A DNA stretch of 64,000 nucleotides from NCBI GenBank assembly GCA_913060875.1, contig CAJXSL010000018.1:1-64000 (forward strand), in the 5' to 3' direction. Each line of letters opens with the position of its first letter. Positions within the stretch are counted from its first letter, which is position 1. The position numbers and the translations under genes were made by a program. A model generated the notes under the pieces. It was not told the origin of the DNA. It worked only from the letters and a program-made list of their open reading frames with translations, and did not search any database. The stretch is from an uncultured Desulfobacteraceae bacterium. GTDB taxonomy: Bacteria > Desulfobacterota > Desulfobacteria > Desulfobacterales > UBA5852. Below, piece after piece: positions 19,413 through 34,930 of the stretch.

Positions 19413-20576
19413 CTATAGCAGCAGCTTGGAAATGATTTCGTTCATGATCTCGGTGGTGCCGCCCCCGATGGTGAGCAGCCGGTTGTCCCGGTACAGGCGC
19501 TCCACCAGGTAGCCCCGCATGAAGCCGAAGCCGCCGAAGATCTGGACCGCATCGTAGGTCACGCGGTTGCTGACGCTGCAGGCGAAATTCTTGGCCATGG
19601 AGACTTCCTTGACCTGGTCGATGCCGGCATCCATGCGGGCCGCCACCCGGTAGGTGTACTCCCGGCTCACCTCCACCAGGGTGGCCAGCTCGGCCAGCTT
19701 GTGGCGGGTCACCTGGAAGCCGGCCAGGGGTTTGCCGAAGGCCTCCCGCTCTTTGGCGTAGCGCAGGGCCTCGTCCAGGGCCAGTTGGGCCGTCATGTTG
19801 GCCATGATGGAAAGGGACAGGCGCTCGGCCTGGAAGTTCTCCATGATGATGTAAAACCCCTGGTTTTCTTCCCCGATCCGGTTGGCCACCGGCACCCGGC
19901 AGTCGTCGAAAAAAAGTTCGGCCGTGTCCGAGGCCCACCAGCCCATTTTGCGCAGTTTGTTGGAGGTGGTAAACCCCGGGGTGCCCTTCTCGATCACCAG
20001 GAAACTGATGCCGTGGGCCCCTTCTTCCCCGGTGCGCACGGCACAGGTGACCTGGTCGGCCCGGCACCCGCTGGTGATGAAGGTCTTGCTGCCGTTGACC
20101 ACGTAGTCGTCGCCGTCGCGCACCGCCGTGGTCTGCAAACGGGCCACGTCGGAGCCGCCGCTCGGTTCGGTAATGCCCAGCGCGGCGATCTTCTCCCCGG
20201 CCAGGACAGGCTTGACAAAGCGCTCTTTCTGTTCGTCCGTGCCGTGGCGGATGATAGGCGGGATGGCGATGTCCAGCGATCCCAAACCGGCCACCAGGCC
20301 GCCGGACCCGGAGCGCATGAGCTCTTCGCTGGCGGCCACCTTGAAAAAGATGTCGCCGGGCGTGCCCCCCAGCTCCTCCGGATAGCCGATCCCCAGTATG
20401 CCCACCTCACCGGCCTGGCGGTAGAGATCGACGGGAAACGCGCCCTGCTCCTCCCATTCGTCGATATACGGTAAAATCTCCTTCTTGACAAAATCCCGCA
20501 CCGACCCGCGCACCATCTCGTGGGCTTTGGAAAAGTATTCCTGGCATCCAGCCCGGGCATTGAATTCAAGCGCCAT
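19413..20576 (-). CDS. acyl-CoA dehydrogenase
   Basis: A 387-aa flavoprotein that would introduce an alpha-beta double bond in an acyl-CoA and pass electrons to ETF. Signatures include ALGITEPSGGSDVA, the substrate/FAD loop VNGSKTFITSG and the C-terminal FGGFGFMRGY...IGGGTTEIM. The residue at the MCAD catalytic position is Gly, but a Glu is present in FQAERLSLS, where long-chain and isovaleryl-CoA dehydrogenases keep their base. That suggests a branched or bulky substrate. It is the most downstream gene of the minus-strand cluster, separated from the MaoC fusion gene by a long hairpin element. Confidence 0.9.
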   Translation of the reverse strand: MALEFNARAGCQEYFSKAHEMVRGSVRDFVKKEILPYIDEWEEQGAFPVDLYRQAGEVGILGIGYPEELGGTPGDIFFKVAASEELMRSGSGGLVAGLGSLDIAIPPIIRHGTDEQKERFVKPVLAGEKIAALGITEPSGGSDVARLQTTAVRDGDDYVVNGSKTFITSGCRADQVTCAVRTGEEGAHGISFLVIEKGTPGFTTSNKLRKMGWWASDTAELFFDDCRVPVANRIGEENQGFYIIMENFQAERLSLSIMANMTAQLALDEALRYAKEREAFGKPLAGFQVTRHKLAELATLVEVSREYTYRVAARMDAGIDQVKEVSMAKNFACSVSNRVTYDAVQIFGGFGFMRGYLVERLYRDNRLLTIGGGTTEIMNEIISKLLL

Positions 20577-20633: not shown

Positions 20634-20775
20634 GTGGACCTTCAGAAGGTGTAGATTTTGATTCGGGCCAAGGCCGCAGCCATTTGGCAACCGCAGGCGT
20701 AGTCCACTACGTCGAGGATTGCCAAATGGCGAGAACGCCGGCCGGGATCAAAAGATGCGCCTTCTGAAGGTCCAC
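20634..20775. repeat. long hairpin element (hairpin family, copy 1)
   Basis: Outer arms GTGGACCTTCAGAAGG (20634-20649) and CCTTCTGAAGGTCCAC (20760-20775) are perfectly complementary. Further complementary blocks lie inside (ATTTTGAT/ATCAAAA, GCCATTTGGCAA/TTGCCAAATGGC), giving a ~140-nt near-continuous hairpin with a central GGCGTAG...CTACG turn. Its edge touches the stop codon of the DUF35-MaoC gene. Confidence 0.85.
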
Positions 20776-21668
20776 TAATCCATGGGAACCGGCGGCAAGA
20801 CGAGCGCCGTCCCCTCCGCCACCAGCTTCTCATCCTGATTCGTCCAGGTCAGCACCATGCGCACCCAGCGCTTCTCTTCCAGTTTTTCCGTCACTTCGGC
20901 CGTAGCCGTGATCGTATCGCCGAAATACGTCGGCGCCCGGAAGCGCGTGTTGATTTCCAGAGCCACCGTGCCCAGCCCGGGCAGTTTCATGCCCAGGACC
21001 GGGGCAATCAGGCACTGGGGCAGGGCCCCGTGGGCAATCCGTGTGCCGAAGGGGGTCTGCTTGGCGAATACTTCATCCACGTGCATGGGATTGAAATCCC
21101 CGGAGATCCCGGCAAAAAGATAGACGTCGGTCTCGGTGATGGTCTTGGTGAAGGAAGCCGACATGCCCACTTCCAGCTCATCATAGGTGTAACCCATGGC
21201 GGCGGTCGCCTTGCGCACGGGACGGAAGCAGGCAATGTCCATGATGGTAGAGGTGGGCTTGCGGGCGAATTCGGCTTTGACCCGCAGGCCGGTTTTCATC
21301 TCACTCGGCCCCACACCGCGCACCACGTGCACCAGGGGGGTGTCCGCCTCGTCCAGCTTGATCAGGGCCTGGATATAGGGCGGCGGAAAGGGCTGGTGGG
21401 GCTCGGCGTAACGAATCACGGTAAACCCCGTCACCGTGCCGGTGGACTTCAATTCCACCCAGTTGTCCGCGATGGGTTTAAAGCAGCGCTCACAGGTGGA
21501 GCGCGGGGGCACGTACACCTTGTCGCAGGAGGGGCAGCGCACCCCCTGGATCTTTTTTTCCTTCTCAAGAGCCGTCAGGAACCGGCTGCCGGTCTGGCCG
21601 GCAAAATACTGGTAGGGCAGGGCCAGTTTGCCTTCAACCACGAAGCAGTCTTCTCTTCCGCTATCCAT
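20775..21668 (-). CDS. DUF35 (zinc ribbon/OB) fused to MaoC-type enoyl-CoA hydratase
   Basis: A 297-aa fusion. Residues 1-150 are a DUF35 unit: a rubredoxin-like zinc ribbon (CPSC at ~45, CERC at ~60) then an OB fold (VELKSTGTVTGFTVIRYAEP). Residues ~160-295 are a MaoC hot-dog hydratase with the catalytic Asp/His segment GISGDFNPMHVDEVFA and the IAHGALPQ helix. It should hydrate a 2-enoyl-CoA. In the steroid-degradation protein ChsH2 the same two domains occur in the opposite order and the DUF35 part binds the Ltp2 aldolase. The N-terminal DUF35 is the paralogue of the stand-alone gene at 27231. It lies 61 bases downstream of the synthetase fusion and is probably cotranscribed. Confidence 0.88.
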   Translation of the reverse strand: MDSGREDCFVVEGKLALPYQYFAGQTGSRFLTALEKEKKIQGVRCPSCDKVYVPPRSTCERCFKPIADNWVELKSTGTVTGFTVIRYAEPHQPFPPPYIQALIKLDEADTPLVHVVRGVGPSEMKTGLRVKAEFARKPTSTIMDIACFRPVRKATAAMGYTYDELEVGMSASFTKTITETDVYLFAGISGDFNPMHVDEVFAKQTPFGTRIAHGALPQCLIAPVLGMKLPGLGTVALEINTRFRAPTYFGDTITATAEVTEKLEEKRWVRMVLTWTNQDEKLVAEGTALVLPPVPMD

Positions 21669-21729
21669 AGGTTTCTCCCTTGCTTGGCGACCAGCGGCAA
21701 ACCGCTGGCCGCATCACTGCCTGCGCAGG

Positions 21730-24700
21730 CTATTCGATAATTTCAAAATATTTGATGTCCGTGATCGCGCCGACCCGTTTGTCGTTCCAGACCGGCCGCA
21801 CACGGGCCCCCCGCTTGACCTTGTCGAAATCGGTCATTTTGAGCTCGTGCCAGAGGGTCTCGTGATCCTTGCAGCCATCCAGCAGGAAATGGGCCGAGAT
21901 ATAGGGGGTCTCCCGGGTTTCACCGGTCAGGGGATCCGGGCTGGCGTAGTAGGTGATGTCCGGCGTGGCGATCACGCCCTCCGGGCCCACTTCCACCCAT
22001 TCCGTGGCCCGCACCCGGCATTCGGCGCAAACTTCCCGCGGCGGCAATTGCAGGCGGCCGCATTGCGGACATTTGTTGGCCAGGATGCGTTTTTCCTTGA
22101 AGGCATTCAGGAACTTGCCCATCACCGGTCCGGTGGCAAACCGCTGGGGGATGGAGAGCACCTGATTGAGACGCACCAAGGGCTCGGCTTCCTCTTCTTC
22201 GGCCGCGGCCGAGGGCGCCTGGTATTTCTTGAAAAACCGGGTGGCCTTGGTCAAGAGCCCCATGTCCCCTTCCACCTTCAGGCGGCCGGAGGTAAACGCC
22301 GTCATCCCGTCGAGCTTGCCCAGGGTGATGGCGATCCAGTCCTTGGCCGACACCGTGGTGGTCACCTGGGGATCGTGGAGGCCCTCCAGCACTTTCACCG
22401 TGCCGTCATTGGCCGCCACCGTCCACTCGCCGCCCCCCGTGCCGGTGACGATGTAGCCGTAGTTGGCCGTCACCCCGGCCACGCCGTCGGGGTTCACCCG
22501 GCTTTCCATGGTGCCGAAGATGTCCGCCACCGTCACTTCCGGGGCGGCGGCCGGCGGCTGGTATTTCTTGAAAAACTGGGCCGCTTTGGTCAGCAGGCCC
22601 ATGTCGCCTTCCACCTTGAGTTTACCCGACGTAAAGGCGGTCATGCCGTCCAGCTTGCCCAGGGTGATGGCGATCCAGTCCTTGGCCGTACAGGTGGTGG
22701 TGACGGCCGGTTCGTGCAGCCCCTCTTTGACCTGCACCGCACCGTCGGCCACGCACACGGTCCATTCGCCGCCGCCCGAGCCGGTGATGATATAGCCGTA
22801 GTTGGCCGTGATGCCGGCCACGCCGTCGGGGTTCACCCGACTCTCCATGGTCCCGAAGATATCCGCCACCGTCACTTCCGGCGCCGCTGCGGGCGGTTGG
22901 TACTTCTTGAAAAATTCCGCCGCCTTGACCAGCAGGCCCATCTCGCCTTCCACTTTGAGCTTGCCCGAAGAAAAGGCGGTCATGCCGTCCAGTTTGCCCA
23001 GGGTGATGGCGATCCAGTCCCTGGCCGCACAGGTGGTGGTGACGGCCGGTTCGTGCAGCCCCTCTTTGACCTGCACCGCACCGTCGGCCACGCACACGGT
23101 CCATTCGCCGCCGCCCGAGCCGGTGATGATATAGCCGTAGTTGGCCGTGATGCCGGCCACGCCATCCGGATTGACCCGGCTCTCCATGGTCCCGAAGATA
23201 TCCGCCACCGTCACTTCCGGTCCCTTGGCGGCCGTGGCCGGCCCGTCCAGACCCCACTGGCGCATTTCTTTTTTCAGGACCTTGCCGATGGGACTGCGGG
23301 GGAAATCGTCTTCCAGGATCTGCACGTATTTGGGCACCTTGAAGCCGGCCAGGTTCTCCCGGCAATAGTCCACGACCTCGTCCTCGGTCAGGCTGTCATC
23401 CAGCGCGATGATGTAGACCTTGACCTCTTCGCCCATGGTGTCGTCCGGGACGCCCAGCGTGGCCGCCTCCTGGATTTTGGGATGGGTGGCCAAAAGATTG
23501 TCGATTTCCTTGGGGTAGATGTTTTCACCGCCCCGGATAATCATGTCCTTGATACGGTCCACGATGAAGATATAGCCGTCATCGTCCATGACGCCCACGT
23601 CACCGGTGTGCAGGAACCCGTCGGCCAGGGTTTCGGCGGTCTCTTCCGGACGGTTGAAATACCCCTTCATGACCACGTCGCCCCGGATGCAGATCTCGCC
23701 GGGGGTGTTGCGGGGCACCTCCTGGCCGTCTTCATCCAGAAGTCGGACCTCCTGACCGGGCAGGGGCAGGCCGATGGAGCCCACCTTGCGCTGGCCGTCG
23801 CGCGGATTCAGGGTGCTCACACAGGTGGCCTCGGTCAGGCCGTAGCCCTCGACGATGGGAATGTCGAATATCTCCTGAAAACGGTTGGCCGTCTCTTCGG
23901 TCAACGGAGCCGCCCCGCAGATGCCGAACTGCAGGGAGCTCAAATCGTATTTCTGGCGGGTGGGATCCGTCAGGAGAATCTGGTAGACCGCCGGCACGGC
24001 CGACCAGAAATTGACCTTGTACTGGTCCACCACTTCCCAGAATTCGCTGGCCGAGAACTGCCGCCGCAAGACGATCTGAAGACCGATGCCCAGGGCAAAG
24101 GTGCACGACAGCATGGCGTTGACATGAAACAGCGGCAGGAAAATTAGGGCGGTCATCTTTTCTTCCAACCCCAGGGATTCGGTCACCCCGGCCACATCCG
24201 CCAGCACATTGCGGTGGGAGAGGAGCACCCCCTTGGGATTGCCCGTGGTCCCGGAGGTGTAGAAGATATAGGCCGTATCCTCTTCGCTGCTTTCGCAGAC
24301 CACCGGCTGATCGTTCCCGCCCTGCAAGAGATCATCGAAGGCGATGTGGCCTTCCCGGGGGGAGGCGCCGACCTCGATGACGGTTTCCAGATGGGGACAG
24401 TTCGGCCGGATCTCATCCAGGATGGGCAGGTACTGGTCTTCGATGATCAGCCCGCGCCCCTGGGAATCGTTGAGCAGGTATTCCACTTCCGGCGCCTTCC
24501 ACCAGCCGTTGATGGGCCCGGCCACCGCACCGATCTTCTGGATGGCAAAATAGGCAATGAGGGTTTCCGGGCTGTTCTGCACCAGCACGTGAATGAAATC
24601 ACCCTTATTGAACCCCTGCGCCTTCAGGGCATTGGCCAGGATATTGACCCGACGGCTGAAATCGCCGAAGGTAACGGTTTGGTCGTAAAACTGGAGATAG

Positions 24701-24753
24701 GGGGCATCTTTATACGTTTCGGCACTGCGATCGAGATAGGTCCCGATGTTCAT
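21730..24753 (-). CDS. acyl-CoA synthetase - three SCP2 domains - DUF35 fusion
   Basis: A 1007-aa protein. Residues 1-505 are an ANL-superfamily acyl-CoA synthetase (FYTSGTTGNPKGV P-loop, YGLTEATC, GFLHTGDVG, DRIKDMIIRGGENIYP, and the C-terminal Lys in SPIGKVLKKE). Three SCP2 sterol-carrier domains of 113 residues each follow (about 512-624, 625-737, 738-850), the first two nearly identical. The end (~865-1007) is a DUF35 zinc ribbon/OB unit (CPQCGRLQLP, CAECRVR) paralogous to the C terminus of the 27817 gene. I infer activation of a carboxylic acid with the product held on SCP2 domains and delivered to the thiolase-like partner. GGGAGG precedes the ATG. No known single protein with this full architecture comes to mind. 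Confidence 0.88.
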   Translation of the reverse strand: MNIGTYLDRSAETYKDAPYLQFYDQTVTFGDFSRRVNILANALKAQGFNKGDFIHVLVQNSPETLIAYFAIQKIGAVAGPINGWWKAPEVEYLLNDSQGRGLIIEDQYLPILDEIRPNCPHLETVIEVGASPREGHIAFDDLLQGGNDQPVVCESSEEDTAYIFYTSGTTGNPKGVLLSHRNVLADVAGVTESLGLEEKMTALIFLPLFHVNAMLSCTFALGIGLQIVLRRQFSASEFWEVVDQYKVNFWSAVPAVYQILLTDPTRQKYDLSSLQFGICGAAPLTEETANRFQEIFDIPIVEGYGLTEATCVSTLNPRDGQRKVGSIGLPLPGQEVRLLDEDGQEVPRNTPGEICIRGDVVMKGYFNRPEETAETLADGFLHTGDVGVMDDDGYIFIVDRIKDMIIRGGENIYPKEIDNLLATHPKIQEAATLGVPDDTMGEEVKVYIIALDDSLTEDEVVDYCRENLAGFKVPKYVQILEDDFPRSPIGKVLKKEMRQWGLDGPATAAKGPEVTVADIFGTMESRVNPDGVAGITANYGYIITGSGGGEWTVCVADGAVQVKEGLHEPAVTTTCAARDWIAITLGKLDGMTAFSSGKLKVEGEMGLLVKAAEFFKKYQPPAAAPEVTVADIFGTMESRVNPDGVAGITANYGYIITGSGGGEWTVCVADGAVQVKEGLHEPAVTTTCTAKDWIAITLGKLDGMTAFTSGKLKVEGDMGLLTKAAQFFKKYQPPAAAPEVTVADIFGTMESRVNPDGVAGVTANYGYIVTGTGGGEWTVAANDGTVKVLEGLHDPQVTTTVSAKDWIAITLGKLDGMTAFTSGRLKVEGDMGLLTKATRFFKKYQAPSAAAEEEEAEPLVRLNQVLSIPQRFATGPVMGKFLNAFKEKRILANKCPQCGRLQLPPREVCAECRVRATEWVEVGPEGVIATPDITYYASPDPLTGETRETPYISAHFLLDGCKDHETLWHELKMTDFDKVKRGARVRPVWNDKRVGAITDIKYFEIIE
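22204..23220. repeat. three tandem 339-bp coding repeats (SCP2 domains)
   Basis: Inside the synthetase gene a 339-bp unit is repeated three times (about 22881-23220, 22542-22880, 22204-22541). The first two units differ by only a few bases over most of their length, which implies recent duplication or gene conversion; the third is more diverged. Copy number could vary by recombination. Confidence 0.9.
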
Positions 24754-24809
24754 CTTGTCCTCCCGCGTTTCCGTTACGGGTTAGCATACGGTCCAAGGGG
24801 CGCCGGCAC

Positions 24810-25991
24810 TCAGCTCGGCACCTCCCGGGTGAGCAAAAACAGAACCGTCCACATGGTGCCGCCGAACCCCGAGGCCAGGGCCTGGTTGACCGTCTTGGGC
24901 ACCTGGTGGTCGCCCGCCCGCCCCATGACCTGCAGGGCCGCTTCGGCCACGCGCACCATGGCGGTGGCACCGATGGGATTCGAAGCGATGACCCCGCCGG
25001 ACGGGTTGACCGGGAAGGCGCCATCGATGGCGATTTCATCGTTTTCGATCATCTTCAGGTGCGCGTCACCCTCCAGCAGGAGAAATTCCCGCAGCCAGTC
25101 CGACCCCCACCAACTGGAAGGATCGTACATTTCGAAAAGATCGATCTCTTCGCGCGGATTTGTGATGCCGCAGCGCCCGAACAATTTCCGGGCCGCATAG
25201 CGGTGGGTGCTGAGCACCGGCGCGTCGCCGAAGATGCAGAACATCTCCTCGCGATGGGCCGTAATGTGGTCCTTGATCCAGGCGGGCTGGTCGCACAGCG
25301 CCTTGGCTTTTTCCTCCGAGGCGAAAACCATGGCACAGGCCCCGTCGCTCTGGGAACACATGTGAATCATGCGCAGCTCGCCCACCAGTTGCGGCGAGTT
25401 CTCCGCCAGTTCCTCGGCCTGGTCGGGCGACAAGCCCAGGCGGCGATGGGCCTTGTTGTTCTTCATGGCATGCTGGTCCATCTGGATGCGGTATTTCATG
25501 GCCACTTTTTTGGCCCGCTCCTCACCGAACTCGTCGATCATCTGGGCCGCCGTCATCCCGGTGAGGGCACCGGTCTGGAGCTGGCGCCCCCACAGGGGAT
25601 CGGCCATATTGGTAATGCCGCCGGTGGTGTGGCCTTCCTGCAGTTTTTCGAAACCAATGGCCAGCACCACATCGTGCAGCCCGGACGCCACCAGATGATC
25701 GGCCGCCGCCACCAGGGTCGCCCCCGTGGTGCCGCCGGTGGTCACCCGCAGGGTCTCCTTGCCGTAAGCCCCGGTCCCCAGCACGTGCCAGAGGTCCGGC
25801 TGGTGGATCATTTCAAAAAGTTCCATATTGCCGTGCACGATGCATTCCACATCGTCGATGGTCACACCGGCACTTTCGAGGGCTTCCACCACCGCCTCAT
25901 TGATCATCTCCGGCTGGTTGACCTCTTCCCGGTGGCTCGAATAGACCGACTGGCCCACACCGATAATGCCGACATTTCTATTCTTCTTCAT
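24810..25991 (-). CDS. thiolase-fold protein, type A (SCP2-thiolase/Ltp-like), module 1
   Basis: A 393-aa thiolase-fold protein, closely paralogous to 28662-29867. It keeps the fold signatures (IHMCSQSDGACAMVF, FPVNPSGGVIASNPIGATAM) but not the chemistry of thiolases. The nucleophile-Cys region reads TTGGTTGATLV, the GHPxGATG histidine is Asn (SNPIGATA) and the last CGGGG cysteine is absent. Such loss is seen in Ltp2-type aldolases, which cleave C-C bonds of beta-hydroxyacyl-CoAs with a DUF35 partner. It probably pairs with the type B protein encoded 24 bases upstream. GGGAGG precedes the ATG. Confidence 0.8.
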   Translation of the reverse strand: MKKNRNVGIIGVGQSVYSSHREEVNQPEMINEAVVEALESAGVTIDDVECIVHGNMELFEMIHQPDLWHVLGTGAYGKETLRVTTGGTTGATLVAAADHLVASGLHDVVLAIGFEKLQEGHTTGGITNMADPLWGRQLQTGALTGMTAAQMIDEFGEERAKKVAMKYRIQMDQHAMKNNKAHRRLGLSPDQAEELAENSPQLVGELRMIHMCSQSDGACAMVFASEEKAKALCDQPAWIKDHITAHREEMFCIFGDAPVLSTHRYAARKLFGRCGITNPREEIDLFEMYDPSSWWGSDWLREFLLLEGDAHLKMIENDEIAIDGAFPVNPSGGVIASNPIGATAMVRVAEAALQVMGRAGDHQVPKTVNQALASGFGGTMWTVLFLLTREVPS

Positions 25992-26015
25992 CAGTTGCCT
26001 CCCTGAGATGAACCT

Positions 26016-27164
26016 TTAGTCCCGTTCCAGAATCGCCACGGAGTGAAATTGCCCGGCCGGCCCCATGACGCCATGGGCCAAGCCGCGACGGGCATCCGCC
26101 ACCTGGCGTTCGCCGGCCAGCCCCATGAGCTGCAGGGCAACCTCGGCCGCCCGCACCAGCCCGCCCAGGATGAGCGGGTTGCCGGCCAGCATGCCGCCGG
26201 ATCGGTTGACGTTCATGGCATCCGGCCCGCCGCCGGCAATCCAGGCGCCGCCGCAGCCTTCGTCCACCAGCCCCAAGCCTTCCATCCACATGGGCTGCTG
26301 GTAGGCGAACTGGTCCGAGACTTCCACGACATCGAACCTGTCGCGGGGCTGATCGATGCCGGCCCGCTGATAGGCCCGGGCAGCAGCCTGCTTGAGCGCA
26401 AAATTGGATGCCAGATCGCGGTCGCCCAGGAAAAAACTGTCCATGCAGTTGCCGACACCCGTGATCCAGACCGGATGATCGCATATGGCGAGGGCCGTCT
26501 CTTCGGCCGCCAGAATCATCCCCACGGCCCCATCCGAAACCGGATAGGCATGGTGGGCACGGATCGGGTCCGCCAGCATGGGGGACGCCAGAACCTCCTC
26601 CCGGGTCAACACCGGTGCCTCCGGTGTGGCGGGGTTCAATTGCGCCATCCGGCCGGCCCGGGCCACGATGTCCGCCAGGTGCGTGTCGCCGACGTCCGAA
26701 CGATCGGCATAGGCCTGGGCCTGGAGACCGGCGGCGGCCGTGAAATCAAGCCCCACCGGACGGGTGTAGAACGGATCGAAGGCCATGTGCGTCACCATGT
26801 TGCGGCTTTGCCCCTGGGATTCCTTGCAGTGTCCCAGCACCAGGGCGGTATCCACATGGCCGCCCTGAATGGCCGCCAGACCGTAATAAAGCGCCTGAAT
26901 CCCCTCCTGGGCGATTTTCTCCTCACAGCGCATGTGCGCGCCCAGAACGTCCGTCATGCCGTTGTCGGAAATGGTGCGGGCATCGAATATATCGTCGGAA
27001 ACGCTGATGCTCATGCCGATGCCCTTGTCCTCGGAAAAATCCAAACCCGTCTGCGCCAAAAGCGGCTCCAGAACTTCGAGCGCCATCCCCTGGAAACGCT
27101 CGTGCCATTTATCCCGCTGGTACGTCGTCTGGGCAACGGCGCAAATGCCAACTCTTCGTGCCAT
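26016..27164 (-). CDS. thiolase-fold protein, type B, module 1
   Basis: A 382-aa divergent thiolase-fold protein, paralogue of 29878-31020. Recognisable remnants are ALVLGHCKES, YPVSDGAVGMILAAEE and NVNRSGGMLAGNPLILGGLVRAAE. The thiolase Cys is not present at the expected place, and the active-site His is again replaced in GNP. It is likely the structural or catalytic partner of the type A protein in a hetero-oligomer. The start at 27164 (MARRVGICAV) has AGGGAGG upstream; a longer frame to 27203 is not conserved with the paralogue. Confidence 0.78.
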   Translation of the reverse strand: MARRVGICAVAQTTYQRDKWHERFQGMALEVLEPLLAQTGLDFSEDKGIGMSISVSDDIFDARTISDNGMTDVLGAHMRCEEKIAQEGIQALYYGLAAIQGGHVDTALVLGHCKESQGQSRNMVTHMAFDPFYTRPVGLDFTAAAGLQAQAYADRSDVGDTHLADIVARAGRMAQLNPATPEAPVLTREEVLASPMLADPIRAHHAYPVSDGAVGMILAAEETALAICDHPVWITGVGNCMDSFFLGDRDLASNFALKQAAARAYQRAGIDQPRDRFDVVEVSDQFAYQQPMWMEGLGLVDEGCGGAWIAGGGPDAMNVNRSGGMLAGNPLILGGLVRAAEVALQLMGLAGERQVADARRGLAHGVMGPAGQFHSVAILERD

Positions 27165-27230
27165 AGATACGGCCCTCCCTGTCCTAGTGCGAATGATGGT
27201 CAACCGCGCGGCTTCCCCGGCGGCTGCCGG

Positions 27231-27698
27231 TCAAGCATCGCATGGTTTGAAATGATCGATATCCCGGATGGTATTCGTGGTGGTTTCGGCAAATACGGCT
27301 TCCACCGCCATGTCGACGGCCACCTGCTCGGGCGGGATGCCTTCCAGCAGGTGCACGATGGGGGTGTCAGCCCCCTCCAGCAGGATCATGGCCAGTACGA
27401 ACGGTACCGGCCGCGGCAGATGACGATCCGGGTAGCGCACCACGGTGAAGTTCACCACCCGGCCGCGGGATCCCACCTCGCACCAACTGTCCGTGAGGTC
27501 GCCGAGGCAGCGCTCGCAGGTCTGGCGGGGCGGTACGAATACCGTGTCGCAGGCAGCGCAGCGCACCCCCATGATCTTGTGCTGGTCCCGGAGCGTGGTG
27601 ATAAACCGGCTGCCCACCCGCCCCGCGAAATAGGTGTAGGGCAGCGCCAGCTTTCCCTCGATCGTGTAGCAGTCGCTGGTATCGAAATCGCTTTGCAT
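27231..27698 (-). CDS. stand-alone DUF35 zinc ribbon/OB-fold protein
   Basis: A 155-aa DUF35 protein: YTIEGKLALPYTYFAGRVGSRF N-terminal helix, zinc ribbon (CAACDTVFVPPRQTCERC), then the OB fold (RGRVVNFTVVRYPDRH). These proteins bind thiolase-fold partners and in Ltp2/ChsH2, BbsA/BbsB and the archaeal thiolase/HMG-CoA synthase complex help hold the acyl-CoA. Its sequence matches the N-terminal half of the DUF35-MaoC fusion at 20775. The start at 27698 has AGGGGG upstream; the open frame runs to 27824 but overlaps the preceding gene with no conservation. Confidence 0.85.
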   Translation of the reverse strand: MQSDFDTSDCYTIEGKLALPYTYFAGRVGSRFITTLRDQHKIMGVRCAACDTVFVPPRQTCERCLGDLTDSWCEVGSRGRVVNFTVVRYPDRHLPRPVPFVLAMILLEGADTPIVHLLEGIPPEQVAVDMAVEAVFAETTTNTIRDIDHFKPCDA

Positions 27699-27816
27699 GG
27701 GTTGTCCCCCTGGTGTGGAATCCGAGCCGGGCATGACCGGGTCGGCCGGGTTGAGGCAGCAGCGCCCCACCGGGCGGGCGGCGTCCTGTCCGCCTCCGCC
27801 GCCGCGCGGCCCGACC

Positions 27817-28665
27817 TCAGTCATCCAGCTCGAAGTATTGAATGTCGTCGATGCTGCCGGTGCGGTTTTCCGCCCAGACCGGCCGCAGCCGCGATCCGTG
27901 ACGGACCTGGCCGTCGATCACACTGCCCATTTGCACCCGATCCAGCTGGGCCGGGTTCAACAGGTGCCAGAAGACTTCCTCGTCCCGGCAGCCGTCCAGG
28001 AGCACCCCGATCGCCCCGTAGGGCGTCTCCCGGGTTTCACCGGTCAGGGGATCCGGGCTGGCGTAGTAGACATACTCCAGCATGCGCATCTCGCCCTTGG
28101 GCCCGATCTCGACCCATTCGGTGTTGCGCACCCGGCAGACCGCACAAATCTCCCGGGGCGGCGACTGGAGGCGGCCGCAGACCGGGCAGCGCATGGCCAG
28201 TATTTTCTTTTCCTTGAGGCCTTTGAGAAAACGGCCCATCACCGGGCCGGTGGCAAAAGTCTGGTCGACACTGATGGTCTGCTTGAGGACCACCAGCTCC
28301 GTCTCCGGCAGGGCCTCTTCCCCCGGCGGGAGGTATTTCTGAAACAGGCGGGTGATGGACCCGAAGGCGCCCCGGTCGCCCGCCACGGTCAGCTTCTGCA
28401 GGGCCATGGCCTCGGTCGCATCGATCTTGCCCAGCTGGATCCCCACAAAGGTCTGCGGGTCCGTGGCCACCACCGCCAGGCAATCGTCGAGATCCTCGGC
28501 CGGCGCCAGGGCCGCATCGCCGTCCCGGACCGCCAGGCGCCAGCGCCCGGCCTCGCCCAGGTCATAGCCGAAGCTGCCGGCAATGCCGGCCGCGGCTTCC
28601 TTGCGGAAACGCGACGGCATGGTTTCAATGACATCCGCTACATCTACGCCGAAATAGGTCGTCAT
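27817..28665 (-). CDS. SCP2 - DUF35 fusion protein
   Basis: A 282-aa protein. Residues 1-115 are an SCP2-like sterol/lipid-carrier domain (VADVIETMPSRFRKEAAAGIAGSFGYDL..., FVGIQLGKIDATEAM); residues ~125-282 are a DUF35 unit (CPVCGRLQSPPREICAVC, then YYASPDPLTGETRETPYGA). The C-terminal part is the paralogue of the end of the 1007-aa synthetase fusion, so this gene is the unfused state of the same module. The ATG at 28665 overlaps the TGA of the type A gene (ATGA), giving translational coupling. Confidence 0.85.
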   Translation of the reverse strand: MTTYFGVDVADVIETMPSRFRKEAAAGIAGSFGYDLGEAGRWRLAVRDGDAALAPAEDLDDCLAVVATDPQTFVGIQLGKIDATEAMALQKLTVAGDRGAFGSITRLFQKYLPPGEEALPETELVVLKQTISVDQTFATGPVMGRFLKGLKEKKILAMRCPVCGRLQSPPREICAVCRVRNTEWVEIGPKGEMRMLEYVYYASPDPLTGETRETPYGAIGVLLDGCRDEEVFWHLLNPAQLDRVQMGSVIDGQVRHGSRLRPVWAENRTGSIDDIQYFELDD

Positions 28666-29867
28666 GGCATTCCCCATCCGTTGAGTTCATCTTCCAGCAT
28701 CAGCAAAACGGTCCACATGGTGCCGCCGAAGGATGACGCCAGCGCGTGGCGCACGGTGCGGGGCACCTGGTGGGGACCGGCATCCCCGCGTATCTGTTTG
28801 GCGGCCTCCGCCACCCGGACCATGGCCGTGGCCCCGATGGGATTGGCCGCAATCACCCCGCCGGAGGGGTTGATGGGCATCCGGCCGCCGATGGCGATCT
28901 CCCGGTCTTCCACCAGCTTCAGGTGGGCGTCCCCTTCGAGTAAAAAGAAATCCCGGAGCCAGTCCACGCCCCACCAGGCCGAGGGGTCGTACATCTCGAA
29001 AACATCGAAGTAGTCGAGGGGGGCATCGATCCCGTTGCGGGCGAAAAGCTGCTCCGCGGCGAAACGGTGGGTCGGGTTGTTGGGGTAGTAATTGGTGCAC
29101 AGATTGAGGGTCTCTTCCCGGTGCACGGTGATGTGGTCCCGCAGCCAGACCGGCTTCTTCGCGATCTGGCGGGCCCGCTCCTCGGAAGCGAAGATCAGGG
29201 CACAGGCGCCGTCCGACTGGGAGCACATGTGGATCAGGCGCAGGTTGCCGATCAGGGGCGGGGAGTCGGCCATGAGGTCGTCCATCTGATCCCAGTCCAG
29301 ACCGAAGGCCCGGTGGGAATTGGGATTCAGGCAGGCGTGCTGGTCCATGATGATACGGTAGGTCATGGCCGCCCGCTTGGCCCGCTCCGGACCGAATTCT
29401 TCGATCAGCTTGACCGCGGCGGAATCCGTGAGAGCGCCCGACTGGAGCTTGCGGGCCCACAGGGGATCGGCCATATTGGTGATGCCGCCGGTGGTGTGGC
29501 CCTCCTGGAGCTTTTCAAACCCGATGGCCAGGACCACGTCGTACATGCCGGAGGCCACCAGGTTGTCCGCCGCGCACACCAGGGTGCCGCCGGTGGTGCC
29601 CCCCGTGGTGATGCGGAAGCTGTCCTTGCCGTAGGCCCCGGAGCCCAGCACATGCCACAAGTCCGGCTGGTGGACCATTTCGAACAATTCCATGTTGCCG
29701 TGCACGACACAGTCCACCTCCTGGATGCCGATCCCGGCATCGTCCAGGGCCTGGCGCACCGCCTCGTGAATCATTTCGGGCTGGTTGACATCTTCCCGGT
29801 GGCTCGAGAACTTGGTCTCGCCGATGCCCACGATACCCACATGCCGATTTTTGGTTCCCCTTGCCAT
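28662..29867 (-). CDS. thiolase-fold protein, type A, module 2
   Basis: A 401-aa paralogue of 24810-25991 (shared IVHGNMELFEMxHQPDLWHVLG, TTGGTTGGTLV, IGFEKLQEGHTTGGITNMADPLW and IHMCSQSDGACA). As in the first copy, the canonical Cys is replaced within TTGGTTGG and His by Asn in AANPIGATAM. I infer a non-thiolytic acyl-CoA enzyme, possibly an aldolase, working with the type B protein and the DUF35 proteins next to it. GGGGAGGG precedes the ATG; the end is coupled to the SCP2-DUF35 gene. Confidence 0.8.
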   Translation of the reverse strand: MARGTKNRHVGIVGIGETKFSSHREDVNQPEMIHEAVRQALDDAGIGIQEVDCVVHGNMELFEMVHQPDLWHVLGSGAYGKDSFRITTGGTTGGTLVCAADNLVASGMYDVVLAIGFEKLQEGHTTGGITNMADPLWARKLQSGALTDSAAVKLIEEFGPERAKRAAMTYRIIMDQHACLNPNSHRAFGLDWDQMDDLMADSPPLIGNLRLIHMCSQSDGACALIFASEERARQIAKKPVWLRDHITVHREETLNLCTNYYPNNPTHRFAAEQLFARNGIDAPLDYFDVFEMYDPSAWWGVDWLRDFFLLEGDAHLKLVEDREIAIGGRMPINPSGGVIAANPIGATAMVRVAEAAKQIRGDAGPHQVPRTVRHALASSFGGTMWTVLLMLEDELNGWGMP

Positions 29868-29877
29868 GCGCCCTCCC

Positions 29878-31020
29878 CTAATTTTCCATGATCAAGACGG
29901 CGTGATGCTGACCGGCCGGCCCGGTGGTGCCATGGGCCAGGGCGCGCTCCAGGCCGTCCACCTGTCGATCGCCCGCTTCGCCGCGCAGTTGGTAAAAGGC
30001 TTCCAGCGCCCGGGCCAACCCACCCAGCATCAGGGGATTGCCGTTCAGCATACCGCCCGAGCGGTTGACCTGGTGACGATCCGGCCCGTCCGCATCCAGC
30101 CAGCGGGCCCCGTCACCGGGCGGCACCAGCCCGACCCCCTCCGCCCACAGGGGCATCTGGTAGGCGGCGGCATCGTTCAGTTCGAAGAGACCGACATCCC
30201 GGGCATCGACACCGCCCGCCATCTTGAACGCACGTTGGGAGGCCTGCTGCAGGGCCGTGCTGAACGCCAGGTCCCGTTCGCCCAGATAATAGCTGTCCAT
30301 GGAGCTGCCGAACCCGGTCAGCCAGACCGGCTTGTCGGTGAACTCGTGGGCGCGCTCTTCACAACACAGCAGCATGCCCACGGCCCAGTCGGTCACCGGG
30401 TAGTAATGGAGCTCCCGCAGGGGGTCGGCCAGCAGCGGCGAGGCCGCCACCGCCTGGTGGGTCACCGCCGCGTTCTCCCGGGCAAAGGGATTGGCCGCGG
30501 CCAGGCGCCGGGAACGGACCACCACCTCGGCCAGATGATCTTCGGTAAGGCCGGCCCGGGTCATATAGGCCCGCGCCTGCAAACCGCCGGCACTCAGGAA
30601 GTCCAATCCCAGGGGCCGGGTAAAAAACGGTTCAAAGGCCAGGTTGGTGCACATGTGCCGGCTTTCGGACTGGGATTCCTTGCAGTGCCCCAGAAGAAGC
30701 ACCAGATCGTCGTGCCCGGACATGATGGCGGCCATGGCGTAGCCCAGGCCGTTCAAGCCATCCTGGGCCATTTTCTCTTCGCCGCGATAATGGGCGCCGA
30801 CCACGTCGGTCATGCCGTTGTCGGAAATCGTGCGGGCGTCGAACACGTCATCCGAACAGGTCACCACATTCCGGACGCCCGTTTCCATGTCAAAGGTGAG
30901 TCCGGTTTGATCCACCAGGGACTCGAAGCATTCCAGCAGCATCCCCTGGAAGCGCTGGTACCAGATATTGGCTTCATTTCGAATCTGCGCCGCCGCGCAG
31001 ATGGCCACCCGCCTCGCCAT
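29878..31020 (-). CDS. thiolase-fold protein, type B, module 2
   Basis: A 380-aa paralogue of 26016-27164 (MARRVAICAAAQ, DVFDARTISDNGMTDVVGAH, LLGHCKESQSESRHM, NRSGGMLNGNPLMLGGLARALE). The catalytic Cys/His of true thiolases are missing. It is the first gene of the module 2-module 1 run, so the operon promoter should lie between 31021 and the hairpin at 31089. AAAGGACAGGAT stands directly before the ATG at 31020; the longer frame to 31116 runs into the repeat. Confidence 0.78.
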   Translation of the reverse strand: MARRVAICAAAQIRNEANIWYQRFQGMLLECFESLVDQTGLTFDMETGVRNVVTCSDDVFDARTISDNGMTDVVGAHYRGEEKMAQDGLNGLGYAMAAIMSGHDDLVLLLGHCKESQSESRHMCTNLAFEPFFTRPLGLDFLSAGGLQARAYMTRAGLTEDHLAEVVVRSRRLAAANPFARENAAVTHQAVAASPLLADPLRELHYYPVTDWAVGMLLCCEERAHEFTDKPVWLTGFGSSMDSYYLGERDLAFSTALQQASQRAFKMAGGVDARDVGLFELNDAAAYQMPLWAEGVGLVPPGDGARWLDADGPDRHQVNRSGGMLNGNPLMLGGLARALEAFYQLRGEAGDRQVDGLERALAHGTTGPAGQHHAVLIMEN

Positions 31021-31088: not shown

Positions 31089-31211
31089 GACGGTTTTGTA
31101 AAAAGTTCGAGATCAAGGCTTGCGGCTCCCGAGGAGCGAGGCGTACATTCGGTACGCCGCAGCAACGAGGGTGGCGCGTAACGCCGATATCGGGCTTTTT
31201 ACAAAACCGTC
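31089..31211. repeat. long hairpin element (hairpin family, copy 2)
   Basis: Arms GACGGTTTTGTAAAAAG (31089-31105) and CTTTTTACAAAACCGTC (31195-31211) are perfectly complementary. The centre carries GAGGCGTACATTCGGTACGCCGCAG, closely matching the 54030 and 62283 copies. The right edge overlaps the stop codon of the PHP gene at 31210. Confidence 0.88.
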
Positions 31212-31758
31212 AGAGGTAGCAGTTCCAGAAATCATTGTGCTTCACCGCCTGCAAAATCGCATCCTTGCTGCGGCCCGCATCCATTTCGATCCAGGCCCGG
31301 CCGATGCCCAGCCGCGTGTGGGAGTCGTCCGATGCGATCTTGGGGTAGGCAATCTCAGGGATTTCATACTCCGGGTTGCGAAACCCCCGGGTGGTAATCT
31401 CCACGGCGTCCAGGGGGTATTCCCTGGCAACCGCTTTCAGGCGTTCGATCAACTTGACCACCGGGAGATCATATTCGCCCAGGTGATTCAGGACGTGCAG
31501 CACTTCCCGGTCGCCGTCGATTTTGTTGACGTGCAGGTAGCCCTTTTCGAACACCGTCAGCTCGATGCCCGTAAAAAGGATCATTTCCGAACGCACGGTC
31601 GCATAGGCCTCGAGGCATCGCTTGCGGGGAAAGTAATCGTGATCCGTAAAGGCGATAAAATCATACCCTTTGGCCTGGTAGGCATCGACCACCGCCTGGG
31701 GGGTCAGATCCCCGTCCGAGCAAGTGGTATGGCAATGAAGGCATCCCTTCAGCAGCAT
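31210..31758 (-). CDS. PHP-domain metal-dependent phosphoesterase-like protein
   Basis: A 182-aa PHP-fold protein with the metal-binding motifs CLHCHTTCSDGDLTP (HxH), FIAFTDHDYF, a Glu in FTGIELTVFE, VLHVLN and a closing SDDSHTRLGIG (DxH). These motifs mark the polymerase-and-histidinol-phosphatase family; related proteins hydrolyse nucleoside or sugar phosphates. The specific substrate is unknown. The ATG at 31758 (MLLKGCLHCH) has AGGTGA upstream, and the longer frame to 31875 overlaps the TetR gene without conservation. It follows the TetR gene by 52 bases. Confidence 0.82.
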   Translation of the reverse strand: MLLKGCLHCHTTCSDGDLTPQAVVDAYQAKGYDFIAFTDHDYFPRKRCLEAYATVRSEMILFTGIELTVFEKGYLHVNKIDGDREVLHVLNHLGEYDLPVVKLIERLKAVAREYPLDAVEITTRGFRNPEYEIPEIAYPKIASDDSHTRLGIGRAWIEMDAGRSKDAILQAVKHNDFWNCYL

Positions 31759-31810
31759 AAGGCATTCACCTGCATATCCCCAGTCCCGCAGCCGGCCGGC
31801 GCCAGTGCCG

Positions 31811-32503
31811 TCAAGACTTCTCCGCTTTGAGACAATTTTGCACCCCGCCGACGATGAATCGCACGGCGTCCTCACCCACTTCCTCCAGGGCGTCCTTGCG
31901 GTCCTGCCAGATCATGTACTGGTAGGCCAGGCGCTCGAACATCCCCATGATGCTGGCGGCCATGACTTCGGCGGCCAGCGGGCTGTGGAAAGGTCCCAGC
32001 TTGTCGGACACGCTTTGGAGGGCGACTTCCAAATCACTGATCAGTTTGTCGAAGATTTTTTTGCGGCGGGCTTCCACCAACTCGCCCTGTCCGGCCGACT
32101 CCCGGAATATCAGGGCAATTTTCTCCGGATGATTGGGACAAAAATCCTCGAAGAAAACCTTGCCGGCCCGACTGAGGCCTTCCAGGGTGCCGTCGGCGTT
32201 CTTGAAGGCCGTGCCCAGGAGATTGCGCAGTTCATACCCGGTCTGATCGAGCAGCTTGACCAGCAGGTCTTCCTTGTTTTTAAAATAGAAGTAGACCGTC
32301 CCCACCGACACCTCGGCCTCGTCGGCGATCCGCTCCATGCCGGTCTGGTGATACCCCTCCCGGGCAAACAGCGTTCCGGCCGCCTCCAAAATCGTCTGCA
32401 GGCGCAGTTCGCGTTCCCGCTGGCGGCGCAGGGCACTGCGGGTCGGTGTCGGCGCGGTTGTCTTGGCGGCCGGGCGAGGCTTTTTATCGCGTTTTGCGGT
32501 CAT
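31811..32503 (-). CDS. TetR/AcrR-family regulator
   Basis: A 230-aa repressor. A basic leader (residues 1-30) precedes the helix-turn-helix (ILEAAGTLFAREGYHQTGMERIADEAEVSVGTVYFYFKNKEDLL). The C-terminal ligand domain is of the FadR/PsrA-like type (FRESAGQGELVEARRKKIFDKLISDLE), which in relatives senses acyl-CoAs. Its position among acyl-CoA dehydrogenase genes and the 15-bp palindromes at 34988 and 35072 suggest it represses this cluster until the CoA-activated substrate appears. The ligand is not known. Confidence 0.88.
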   Translation of the reverse strand: MTAKRDKKPRPAAKTTAPTPTRSALRRQRERELRLQTILEAAGTLFAREGYHQTGMERIADEAEVSVGTVYFYFKNKEDLLVKLLDQTGYELRNLLGTAFKNADGTLEGLSRAGKVFFEDFCPNHPEKIALIFRESAGQGELVEARRKKIFDKLISDLEVALQSVSDKLGPFHSPLAAEVMAASIMGMFERLAYQYMIWQDRKDALEEVGEDAVRFIVGGVQNCLKAEKS

Positions 32504-32596: not shown

Positions 32597-33736
32597 TCAT
32601 CGCCCGGGGGCATAGCCCAGGGCCTGATCGCCGATGCGGACCCGCGCAATCTCGGTGGAGATGCCGCCGATCTGGGTCCATTTGGCGGCCCGGTAGGCCG
32701 ACTCGGAAGCGCTTCCGGCGCGATACCCCTGTCCCGCGAGAATACGCAGGGCGTCTCCGGCCACGCGCTCCGCCGCTTCCGTGGCGAACACCTTGGCGCA
32801 CCAGATCAACGCGGCGCCCTCCTTGGGCTGGTCTTTAAGGGTCCAGACCGCCCGGTAGGCCAACAGTTGGGCCGTCTGGTACAAGGTCAGCATTTCCGAG
32901 AGTTTGAACCCGACCTCCTGATAGGCGATGACGGGTTTACCGCCGGAGCGATGGGACTTGGCGAAATCCCGGGCCTCGGCAAACGCGGCCTGCATCATGC
33001 CCAGGGCGGCCGCCATCAGAACTTCGTTCTCCCACTGGCGCAGAAGATCCAGAACAGGGGTCCCCTCGGGGGGAAGCAAAACGTTTTCTTCGGGGAGGAC
33101 ACACGCGTCAAGCGTGACATCGGCCATCCGGATGCCATCATAGCCCATGGTGGGCACGGGTTCCGATATGCTCAGGCCCTCCGTCCCGGCGTCCAGCATG
33201 AAAATGGCCGGGCGATCATCCAACAGGCCCACGACCCCGATCTTGTCCGCCAGGGGCGCGTTGATGACATAGTGTTTGCCGCCGCTGACAACGACGCGGC
33301 CGTCTTTGCGGCTGCCCACGGTGGCCAGGGGATCGTTCTGGACGTTCATGGCTTCTTCGGACAATGCCAGGGCGCCGATCCACTGCCCCTGCAAGAGCCC
33401 CTCCCGCCACTGTTCCTGGGTGGCACCGGTTCCCCACCGGGCCAGCGCACGGCCCAGCACGCGGGTGCTCATCTCCACCGCCAGGAAAAGGGAACGGGCC
33501 TGGCCCGCCAGTGTTTCCATGGCCGCCATCTGGTTCACGGCACTTTCCGAAGCGTCGCCGGCCAGACCATCCTGGAGATAACCGGCCCCGGCCAGGGTCT
33601 TGAGCATCTCCCGCAGCGCGGCGGAAATCGTATCGACCGTCGCCCCGGCCAGGTCTTCCTCGGCGGGTGCGGTCGCGGCAATGGACCGAATCGCTTCGAA
33701 CAGTTTTTCCGCTTCTTCCGAAAAATCATAGTTCAT
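32597..33736 (-). CDS. divergent acyl-CoA dehydrogenase subunit
   Basis: A 379-aa member of the acyl-CoA dehydrogenase fold with a much altered N-terminal half (Ala-rich, with short helices in place of the usual FFPYID-like start). Fold marks are ALALSEEAMNVQNDP, VSGGKHYVINAP and a C-terminal ILAGQGYRAG...IGGISTEIARVRIGD. The MCAD base position is Ile, while a Glu in RQWENEVLM lies near the long-chain-type base position. It sits directly downstream of the 33788 gene (51 bases), so the two may form a heteromeric dehydrogenase as the ChsE/FadE pairs do in actinobacteria. Confidence 0.78.
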   Translation of the reverse strand: MNYDFSEEAEKLFEAIRSIAATAPAEEDLAGATVDTISAALREMLKTLAGAGYLQDGLAGDASESAVNQMAAMETLAGQARSLFLAVEMSTRVLGRALARWGTGATQEQWREGLLQGQWIGALALSEEAMNVQNDPLATVGSRKDGRVVVSGGKHYVINAPLADKIGVVGLLDDRPAIFMLDAGTEGLSISEPVPTMGYDGIRMADVTLDACVLPEENVLLPPEGTPVLDLLRQWENEVLMAAALGMMQAAFAEARDFAKSHRSGGKPVIAYQEVGFKLSEMLTLYQTAQLLAYRAVWTLKDQPKEGAALIWCAKVFATEAAERVAGDALRILAGQGYRAGSASESAYRAAKWTQIGGISTEIARVRIGDQALGYAPGR

Positions 33737-33787
33737 ATGCTGTCCCCCTGCATGCTAATTTGCTGTCTGCCGCCTCACAAAGCCGAT

Positions 33788-34930
33788 CTACATCAGGCGC
33801 GAAATGATCATCTTCTGCACTTCCGAAGTACCGCCGCCGATGGGTGCCAGACGGGTATCGCGGAAAATGCGCTCCACATCGAATTCATGGGTATAGCCGT
33901 AGCCGCCGTGCAGGGTCACCGCATCGTTGGTTACCGGCAAGCTCCAGTCGCCGATGAAAAGTTTGGCCACGGCCGCTTCCAGATGGTTCAGCGGACGCCC
34001 CTGATCCTTGCACCAGGCAATGCGGTAGACCAGGGCCCGGGCCGCTTCACCGAAAATGCGCATATCGGCCAGTTTGCGTTTGATGGCCTGGTAGTGCCCG
34101 ATGGGTTTGCCGAACTGCACGCGCCCTTTGGCATAGTCGGCGCACTTTTTGACCAGGTAGGTGGTGGACCCCACGAAGGGCGCCAGCAGGGCGCTGCGAT
34201 CCCACTCCACGGTCTGCATGGCCATCAGGAACCCCTCGCCTTCGTTGCCGAGGAGGTTTTCCGCCGGTATGACGCAATTGTTCAACACCAGCTCCGACGT
34301 CTTGGATGTGCGCACCCCCATTTTGAGCAGGGGCGGCCCGGCGCTGAAGCCCGGGGTGCCCTTGTCGATGATGAACGCGGAAATGCCCGCATGCTGCTGG
34401 TCCGGATCGGTTTTGGCATAAACCACGGCCACGTCCGCGATGGGGCCGTTGGTGATCCACATTTTCGTACCGTTGAGAACGTAGGTATCACCCTGGCGGG
34501 TGGCCGTGGTCGACATGGAGGCCACATCCGAGCCGGCATCCGGCTCCGAGAGGCCCATGCAGCCGATCCACTCGCCGCTGGCCAGCTTGGGGATGTAGTG
34601 CTGCCGCTGGGCATCCGTGCCATGCCGGAAAATGGTGTCGGCACACAAAAAGGAGTGGGCCCCGTAAGCCAGTGTCAGCCCCCCGTCCACACCGGCTTCG
34701 CCCAGGGCTTCCCCGGCCAGCACGGTGGTGACCACATCGGCGCCGCCGCCGCCCAGTTCCTCCGGGAAATGCAGCCCCAGAATGCCGAAATCCCCCATCT
34801 TGCGAAACGACTGGAAATCAAACTCACCATTGAGATCGTGCTCCTGGACACGGGGCACGATCTCCTTTTTGGCGAACCGGATCACTTCCTTCTTGAACAT
34901 CACTTGTTCCCGGGAAAAAGAAAAATCCAT
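33788..34930 (-). CDS. acyl-CoA dehydrogenase
   Basis: A 380-aa, otherwise classical acyl-CoA dehydrogenase (MGLSEPDAGSDVASM, VLNGTKMWITNG, RVQFGKPIGHYQ, LHGGYGYTHEF). At the C-terminal site it has IGGGTSEVQ, so the MCAD Glu is Gly. At the alternative long-chain/isovaleryl site it has VEWDRSALL, with Asp where Glu is expected. It could still act with Asp as base, or be the FAD-binding partner of the adjacent divergent subunit. GGAGG lies just before the ATG. A promoter and two operator-like palindromes precede it. Confidence 0.88.
   Translation of the reverse strand: MDFSFSREQVMFKKEVIRFAKKEIVPRVQEHDLNGEFDFQSFRKMGDFGILGLHFPEELGGGGADVVTTVLAGEALGEAGVDGGLTLAYGAHSFLCADTIFRHGTDAQRQHYIPKLASGEWIGCMGLSEPDAGSDVASMSTTATRQGDTYVLNGTKMWITNGPIADVAVVYAKTDPDQQHAGISAFIIDKGTPGFSAGPPLLKMGVRTSKTSELVLNNCVIPAENLLGNEGEGFLMAMQTVEWDRSALLAPFVGSTTYLVKKCADYAKGRVQFGKPIGHYQAIKRKLADMRIFGEAARALVYRIAWCKDQGRPLNHLEAAVAKLFIGDWSLPVTNDAVTLHGGYGYTHEFDVERIFRDTRLAPIGGGTSEVQKMIISRLM

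Follow-up and report, generated by a model that had tools for sequence, protein, structure and literature searches.

Two adjacent B-A-DUF35-DUF35 cassettes from an uncultured Desulfobacteraceae bacterium encode candidate heteromeric retro-aldolases of the Ltp3-Ltp4 kind

The stretch of DNA analysed here (the window) comprises 64,000 nucleotides of contig CAJXSL010000018.1 (assembly GCA_913060875.1) from an uncultured Desulfobacteraceae bacterium, and all positions are given in window coordinates. Two cassettes, each encoding two thiolase-fold proteins (B and A) followed by two DUF35 proteins, lie side by side at 20775–31020, with all eight genes on the minus strand. Module 2 is transcribed first and consists of B2 (29878–31020), A2 (28662–29867), Z2 (27817–28677), an SCP2-DUF35-I protein in which a lipid-binding-type domain is joined to a zinc ribbon and an oligonucleotide/oligosaccharide-binding (OB) domain, and D2 (27231–27698), a zinc ribbon/OB protein of the DUF35-II type whose start codon at 27698 was inferred from translation. 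Module 1 follows with B1 (26016–27164), A1 (24810–25991), SZ1 (21730–24753), a 1007-residue fusion of an AMP-forming acyl-coenzyme A (CoA) ligase, three SCP2 domains and DUF35-I, and D1M (20775–21668), a 297-residue fusion of DUF35-II with a MaoC hydratase.

Pfam analysis identified Thiolase_C_1 in B1, B2, A1 and A2, with Thiolase_N additionally in A1 and A2, zf-ChsH2 and/or the ChsH2 OB domain in all four DUF35 proteins, SCP2 in both DUF35-I proteins, AMP-binding in SZ1 and MaoC in D1M. The zinc motif CxxC...CxxC is kept by four of the four DUF35s, and the GDxNPxH motif of MaoC is intact (GDFNPMH). The assignment of the thiolase-fold subunits also drew on active-site residues and a tree, that of Z2 on sequence identity and that of D2 on identity and the tree. 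Structural modelling of B1 in AlphaFold (predicted local distance difference test, pLDDT, 92.6; predicted template modelling score, pTM, 0.94) gave a thiolase fold with 4YZO, 6ET9/6ESQ and 7YVY as the top structure matches, PhlC and 6ESQ being among the fold matches. Both coordinates and Pfam agree with an earlier, sequence-only reading of this DNA, which had described two four-part modules with this order, placement and domain content.

The two modules are paralogous rank by rank. A1 and A2 share 67% identity over 390 residues, B1 and B2 55% over 379, the DUF35-I domains 57% over 150 and the DUF35-II domains 51% over 149, whereas the cross-type identities are low (25–30% for A versus B and 26–31% for DUF35-I versus DUF35-II); the rank-by-rank correspondence proposed in the sequence-only reading is therefore real. 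That reading had also spoken of a duplication, of which the paralogy stands but a fresh tandem copy was rejected, since each cassette type has nearer kin elsewhere and also occurs singly. Relatives (loci L046–L175) were collected by similarity to A (and B) and are thus not a random sample. A1 is 91% identical to a Desulfosarcina widdelii protein and A2 86% to one in L162, as against only 67% between A1 and A2. Within the stretches fetched, the solo module-1 type (B, A, ligase-SCP2-DUF35, DUF35-MaoC) was found in L074, L075 and L077, and the solo module-2 type in L066–L068. Both A genes are present in 11 of 77 loci (L100, L101, L103, L105, L108, L109, L113, L114, L124, L126 and L166); L118 also holds both, and L151 carries the tail of module 1 together with module 2. 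Only L118 among these loci with both modules has module 2 first, as in the window. By these comparisons, the two cassettes are old paralogues that have come to lie together.

An alignment of 295 thiolase-fold sequences (291 from the loci and 4 from the window) allowed the active sites to be compared. Seven Cys-bearing rows were removed first as thiolases and the remaining sequences were assigned by their best match, 146 to A and 142 to B, so that the absence of Cys in A is by construction. The catalytic Cys is replaced by Gly and the active-site His by Asn in all of A1 (Gly87 and Asn338), A2, B1 and B2, in keeping with the sequence-only reading that the four proteins lack the nucleophile. The Cys site is Gly in 146 of 146 A, and the first residue of the HDCF motif, the His position, is Tyr in 146 of 146 A (Tyr289 in A1; MYDPS in A2). 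The B sequences are mixed at the Tyr position (Ser 57, Asn 25, Tyr 16, Cys 16 and others, n = 142; Asn in B2) and have Gly (120), Ser (18) or others (4) at the Cys site; deduplicated counts, from 140 distinct A and 137 distinct B, were alike. It is thus A rather than B that keeps the aldolase Tyr family-wide. A Tyr at the HDCF position is the catalytic base in both Ltp2 (Tyr294) and Sal (Tyr302), and Sal has Gly in place of Cys (PMC12329534; here and below, what is attributed to cited articles rests on parts of their text). Given that Tyr occupies the catalytic-base position in all A and few B, one working and one inert protomer are proposed, with A looking like the working aldolase protomer and B like the inert one.

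One Cys-less thiolase-fold protein on a Simplicispira plasmid (L172, 8632–9888) carries Tyr-x-His at the catalytic motif and lies near a normal A/B pair; it was counted among the 146 A and falls outside the A clade of the tree described below.

The pairing of B with A is highly conserved. In 77 loci, 88 A genes have at least 60% identity with A1 or A2, and B is the upstream open reading frame (ORF) in 85 of the 85 having one. Same-strand A/B neighbour pairs numbered 145 across the window and L046–L175, and 144 were scored B-A; the lone A-B scoring (Tsukamurella, L093) stems from an over-long open frame, the record annotating B and then A. Exactly two DUF35 domains accompany 71 of the 78 A/B pairs with full flanks. 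Six of the remaining pairs have three or four DUF35s (L084, L118 twice, L151 and the window twice), a second cassette or another DUF35 being within reach, and one, on a Rhodococcus plasmid (L092), has a single DUF35. With identical proteins counted once, there are 138 pairs, 74 of them fully flanked and 67 with two DUF35s. These counts describe a strict four-part cassette. Judging from record titles, the cassette is spread over Desulfobacterota, Spirochaetota, Hydrogenedentota and others, mostly in metagenome-assembled genomes. In the bacterium's own genome, L090 (contig C15, 8302–13240) contains two large ORFs (909 and 708 residues) with SCP2-like matches that adjoin a Cys-bearing thiolase.

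An enzyme kind with this make-up, Ltp3-Ltp4, has been recognised genetically in the breakdown of sterols by bacteria. A tree of 70 sequences, rooted on Cys thiolases and leaving out Tsukamurella A and Streptomyces B, resolved an A clade of 21 rows (support in the Shimodaira–Hasegawa-like approximate likelihood ratio test, SH-aLRT, 96), including Streptomyces (L173) and Rhodococcus (L092) proteins, and a B clade of 39 rows (SH-aLRT 99), including those of Tsukamurella (L093) and Nonomuraea (L175); the Cupriavidus pair (L091) places one member in each. The window proteins hence share both clades with actinobacterial Ltp3/Ltp4-type proteins. B and A from Tsukamurella and Streptomyces score above the cut-offs set for the NCBIfam models PRK07937 ('lipid-transfer protein') and PRK08313, and are preceded by a single double-DUF35 protein, the same order as Rv3521, ltp4 (Rv3522) and ltp3 (Rv3523) in published gene tables (PMC6429209); by order and family, the Tsukamurella pair probably corresponds to ltp4 and ltp3. 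According to a review, Ltp3 and Ltp4 form a heteromeric aldol-lyase; once a branched sterol side chain has been carboxylated and hydrated, this enzyme cuts its C24–C25 bond and leaves a carboxylate that must be thioesterified (PMC6678751). The A/B arrangement, which the sequence-only reading could not name, therefore does have a name. Similar to Ltp3-Ltp4 with Rv3521, each cassette has an adjacent B-A pair of Cys-less thiolase-fold proteins from the same clades and two DUF35 domains, and retro-aldol cleavage is proposed for both. Unlike in the three actinobacterial records L093, L173 and L175, where the DUF35s are fused together, those of the cassette family stand alone or are joined to SCP2, ligase, MaoC or beta-keto acid cleavage enzyme (BKACE). 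In their sequence features the cassettes appear to belong to the Ltp3-Ltp4 type. No structure or enzyme assay of Ltp3-Ltp4 was found in the open PubMed Central literature, to which our literature searches were confined, subscription papers being outside their scope.

A census of 254 DUF35-bearing ORFs from the window and loci, redundant records included, gave fusions to MaoC (28), BKACE (15), one to three SCP2 domains (54), ligase plus SCP2 (21) and a second DUF35 (3), with none of these in 133. The partners follow the DUF35 type, DUF35-II being fused to MaoC or BKACE and DUF35-I to SCP2 with or without a CoA ligase. DUF35-BKACE ORFs were observed in L136 (11389–12816), L154 (11383–12825) and 13 other loci, 10 of the 15 loci having spirochaete titles; BKACE was confirmed by Pfam in L136 and L154 and assigned in the remaining 13 by BLAST against L136. 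The nearest NCBIfam model of the L136 BKACE is 3-keto-5-aminohexanoate cleavage enzyme, below the cut-off. Both subunits of a CoA-transferase pair of L136 were matched in 14 loci and one subunit in 4 more. IpdAB of steroid ring degradation was considered for this pair, which lies beside BKACE cassettes, and dropped, as the only NCBIfam match was a sub-cut-off one to 3-oxoacid CoA-transferase subunit A.

Enzymes of the BKACE family consume beta-keto acids and would therefore act after carbon–carbon cleavage, while MaoC makes the beta-hydroxyacyl-CoA and therefore acts before it; the fused CoA ligase might serve either at the entry step or on the acid that is set free. The sequence-only reading had module 1 DUF35s captured by the enzymes acting before and after. 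The fusions are there, but MaoC acts before the cleavage rather than after, and it is the BKACE of the 15 ORFs in relatives that would act after. In the Ltp2 system, cleavage pulls an unfavourable hydration (PMC11321319, PMC8399759). No DUF35-BKACE fusion was found described in the open literature searched, and the enzyme-fused form of the cassette looks undescribed. The DUF35s may be docking ports that tether other enzymes of the same pathway.

In the crystal structure of Sal, a dimer lies at the centre with a copy of the same DUF35 on either side (PMC12329534). As the A and B halves differ, and two different protomers would need two different DUF35s, such as the cassettes provide, each protomer would have its own. 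A natural A-DUF35-I fusion occurs in one genome (L164), and the order DUF35-B-A-DUF35 was scored in 10 pairs; the five downstream DUF35s of those pairs present in the tree (L048, L051, L053, L056 and L064) all fall in the DUF35-I clade (SH-aLRT 97). Gene order and the one fusion suggest that DUF35-I probably sits on A, and DUF35-II would then most likely sit on B. No two-DUF35 heteromer was found described in the open literature searched.

On balance, we favour the view, though by no means with certainty, that each cassette encodes a heteromeric, DUF35-docked retro-aldolase of the Ltp3-Ltp4 kind for hindered beta-hydroxyacyl-CoAs. A number of observations weigh against it. As to kinship, the A/B pair of L058 is not split between the two clades and stays outside with the Simplicispira protein L172_8632; the NCBIfam scores of the window A and B stay under the cut-offs, and PRK07937 ranks only second for B1 (after PRK08313) and B2 (after PRK06066). 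The branch carboxylase of the proposed Ltp3-Ltp4 pathway is absent beside the cassettes, with no carboxyltransferase match in the window and one (L059) among L046–L175, a count that excludes L171, whose terpene-utilisation carboxylases served as query, and no sterol- or steroid-specific gene was identified among the window genes scanned. As to the DUF35s, profile scores label both DUF35s of the DUF35-B-A-DUF35 loci as type II, which for the downstream ones contradicts the tree; in the tree, the two halves of the double DUF35 from actinobacteria are placed apart from DUF35-I and DUF35-II, so that it gives no half-by-half correspondence; and the model of the L164 A-DUF35-I fusion is weak (pLDDT 70.9, pTM 0.60, a disordered linker and only 5 rows covering the A part) and unusable as interface evidence. 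An A–B covariation analysis of 130 pairs (effective number 38) gave nothing usable: among the best 40 column pairs, both columns fell within positions 75–105 in 1 (0.26 expected), A columns in 3 (2.9 expected) and B columns in 13 (3.5 expected), and nothing was drawn from these values because there are so few effective pairs and no dimer structure. As to chemistry, the position of Sal Cys304, the third residue of HDCF, is Pro in 144 of 146 A, and the GHP His position, equated with Ltp2 Tyr344 by spacing, is Asn in 143 of 143 A (3 gaps), so that A lacks both the general acid of Sal and that of Ltp2. At the position of A1 Cys212, 144 of 146 A have Cys, but so do 6 of 7 thiolases.

The lack of an interface signal in covariation would suit an arrangement in which A and B are two independent aldolases, each a separate homodimer with its own DUF35 catalysing successive steps, particularly as Sal and Ltp2 each form a homodimer that uses a single type of DUF35, and one DUF35 is available per subunit here. 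Nevertheless, B lies upstream of A in 85 of 85 cases, its want of a conserved residue at the catalytic Tyr position would be odd for a stand-alone enzyme, and Ltp3-Ltp4 is described as one heteromeric activity (PMC6678751), making this arrangement unlikely in our view. The unaccounted general acid could likewise indicate that the complex is a decarboxylase, a hydrolase or a binding protein that works without Cys; TbSLP is reported to decarboxylate malonyl-CoA very slowly (cited in PMC12329534). The same article makes the case for TbSLP being an aldolase and observes no decarboxylation of this kind with Sal, and the tethering of a hydratase fits aldol chemistry; we regard this function as improbable. 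A heteromeric retro-aldolase thus remains our preferred reading, and its aldolase-like working is supported by the Tyr together with the operon content, the operon encoding a hydratase, a ligase and acyl-CoA dehydrogenases according to Pfam. Neither a 3-hydroxyacyl-CoA dehydrogenase nor a Cys thiolase was present among the 13 window proteins scanned with Pfam, the four thiolase-fold ones being read by residue. The conserved Tyr, the Gly for Cys and this operon content speak for the multi-subunit, Ltp2-ChsH2-related aldolase- or lyase-like machine that the sequence-only reading had envisaged, and its substrate may be an isoprenoid, sterol-like or alicyclic acid, as was suggested there.

Sal-Shy from Comamonas (9MYR) and Ltp2-ChsH1-ChsH2 (6OK1) resemble the cassettes in that their aldolase has a thiolase fold, Gly in place of Cys and a Tyr as catalytic residue, and in that a DUF35 docks the preceding MaoC hydratase, the DUF35-MaoC order of module 1 being that of Shy. 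However, they are homodimers with one DUF35 type, whereas the cassettes have two thiolase-fold genes and two kinds of DUF35, and their general acid, Cys304 or Tyr344, is missing in A; with these two defining features failing, the cassette enzyme does not appear to be an Ltp2 or Sal. Benzoylsuccinyl-CoA thiolase BbsAB (7PXP) shares the thiolase fold and a DUF35 subunit, but the alignment gives it the Cys, an HDAF motif and the GHP His, while the window proteins lack that Cys and His. A thiolase like BbsAB, a system on which the sequence-only reading drew, or of any other kind, was rejected on account of the Gly and Asn replacements in A1, A2, B1 and B2.

Condensing enzymes of the PhlACB or 3-hydroxy-3-methylglutaryl (HMG)-CoA synthase kind use a Cys nucleophile. 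Its absence from A and B, together with operon neighbours that are acyl-CoA dehydrogenases, a hydratase and a ligase, makes a condensing or acyl-transfer complex, or an aldol reaction run in the synthetic direction, a poor candidate, even though PhlC and 6ESQ are among the fold matches and DUF35 also joins two thiolase-fold proteins in the PhlACB acyltransferase and in the archaeal thiolase-HMG-CoA synthase-DUF35 complex (6ESQ) (PMC12329534). These systems, among which the MucABC acyltransferase is placed by title, differ from the cassettes in their acyl-transfer or condensing chemistry and, in PhlABC, in a single DUF35 per thiolase domain. ThnQ/ThnS of anaerobic naphthalene degradation are of interest as, in a sulfate-reducing culture, they cleave a beta-hydroxyacyl-CoA whose hydroxyl is tertiary (PMC12016498, citing unpublished results); the review lists them as AtuA-like, another family, and they were dropped as homologues on that description. 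LrcC of anaerobic limonene degradation, another of the nearest known systems, is described as a member of the HMG-CoA synthase superfamily.

Further genes flank the cassettes. An acyl-CoA dehydrogenase gene (19413–20576, minus strand, Pfam) lies directly downstream of module 1, and one also trails many module-1-type cassettes of other genomes. Upstream of B2, an ORF at 31210–31875 (minus strand, true start uncertain) encodes a small PHP-domain protein by Pfam, whose nearest solved structures are weakly similar PHP phosphoesterases (best E 4.8e-7, residues 10–93); in related cassettes, the gene immediately upstream of B encodes a PHP protein for 57 of the 77 A genes that could be scored. Two divergent acyl-CoA dehydrogenases encoded side by side at 32597–34930 (minus strand), and likewise next to the cassette in loci of Desulfosarcina, are reminiscent of the heteromeric dehydrogenases that act in steroid side-chain degradation, and the member at 32597–33736 has Gly where aligned dehydrogenases carry the Glu of YEGT.

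In the proposed mechanism, catalytic A would pair with the inert partner B in place of the Ltp2 or Sal homodimer. A hydratase, in module 1 the MaoC tethered via DUF35-II, would add water to the enoyl-CoA, and Tyr289 of A would take the proton from the hindered, probably tertiary, beta-hydroxyl, so that the carbon–carbon bond breaks to give an acyl-CoA and a ketone or beta-keto acid. The DUF35-I arm would carry the SCP2 domains, with module 1 adding a CoA ligase that may load the substrate or re-activate the released acid. More tentatively, and with less confidence than in the retro-aldolase itself, the heteromer may be pseudo-symmetric, B serving as an inactive scaffold that leaves space for a bulky or branched substrate beside the working protomer A, and the two DUF35s may be non-equivalent ports, the A side taking lipid carriers and CoA ligase and the B side hydratase or BKACE. 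If so, the BKACE port predicts that a beta-keto acid is released, which BKACE with acetyl-CoA would convert to acetoacetate and a shortened acyl-CoA; this matches the carboxylate that, in the review, needs thioesterification after Ltp3-Ltp4 cleavage (PMC6678751). The cassettes would then represent an anaerobic lyase line for 3-hydroxy-3-substituted glutaryl-CoA-like intermediates.

Oxygen-free cleavage of hindered acyl-CoAs, whether branched, alicyclic or polycyclic, is a bottleneck in anaerobic lipid and hydrocarbon breakdown, for which the cassette provides a testable candidate enzyme. The little-studied Ltp3-Ltp4 pair would thereby become a large family with a clear prediction, namely that A is active, B is inert and each has one DUF35, and DUF35 would emerge as an exchangeable port for neighbouring enzymes.

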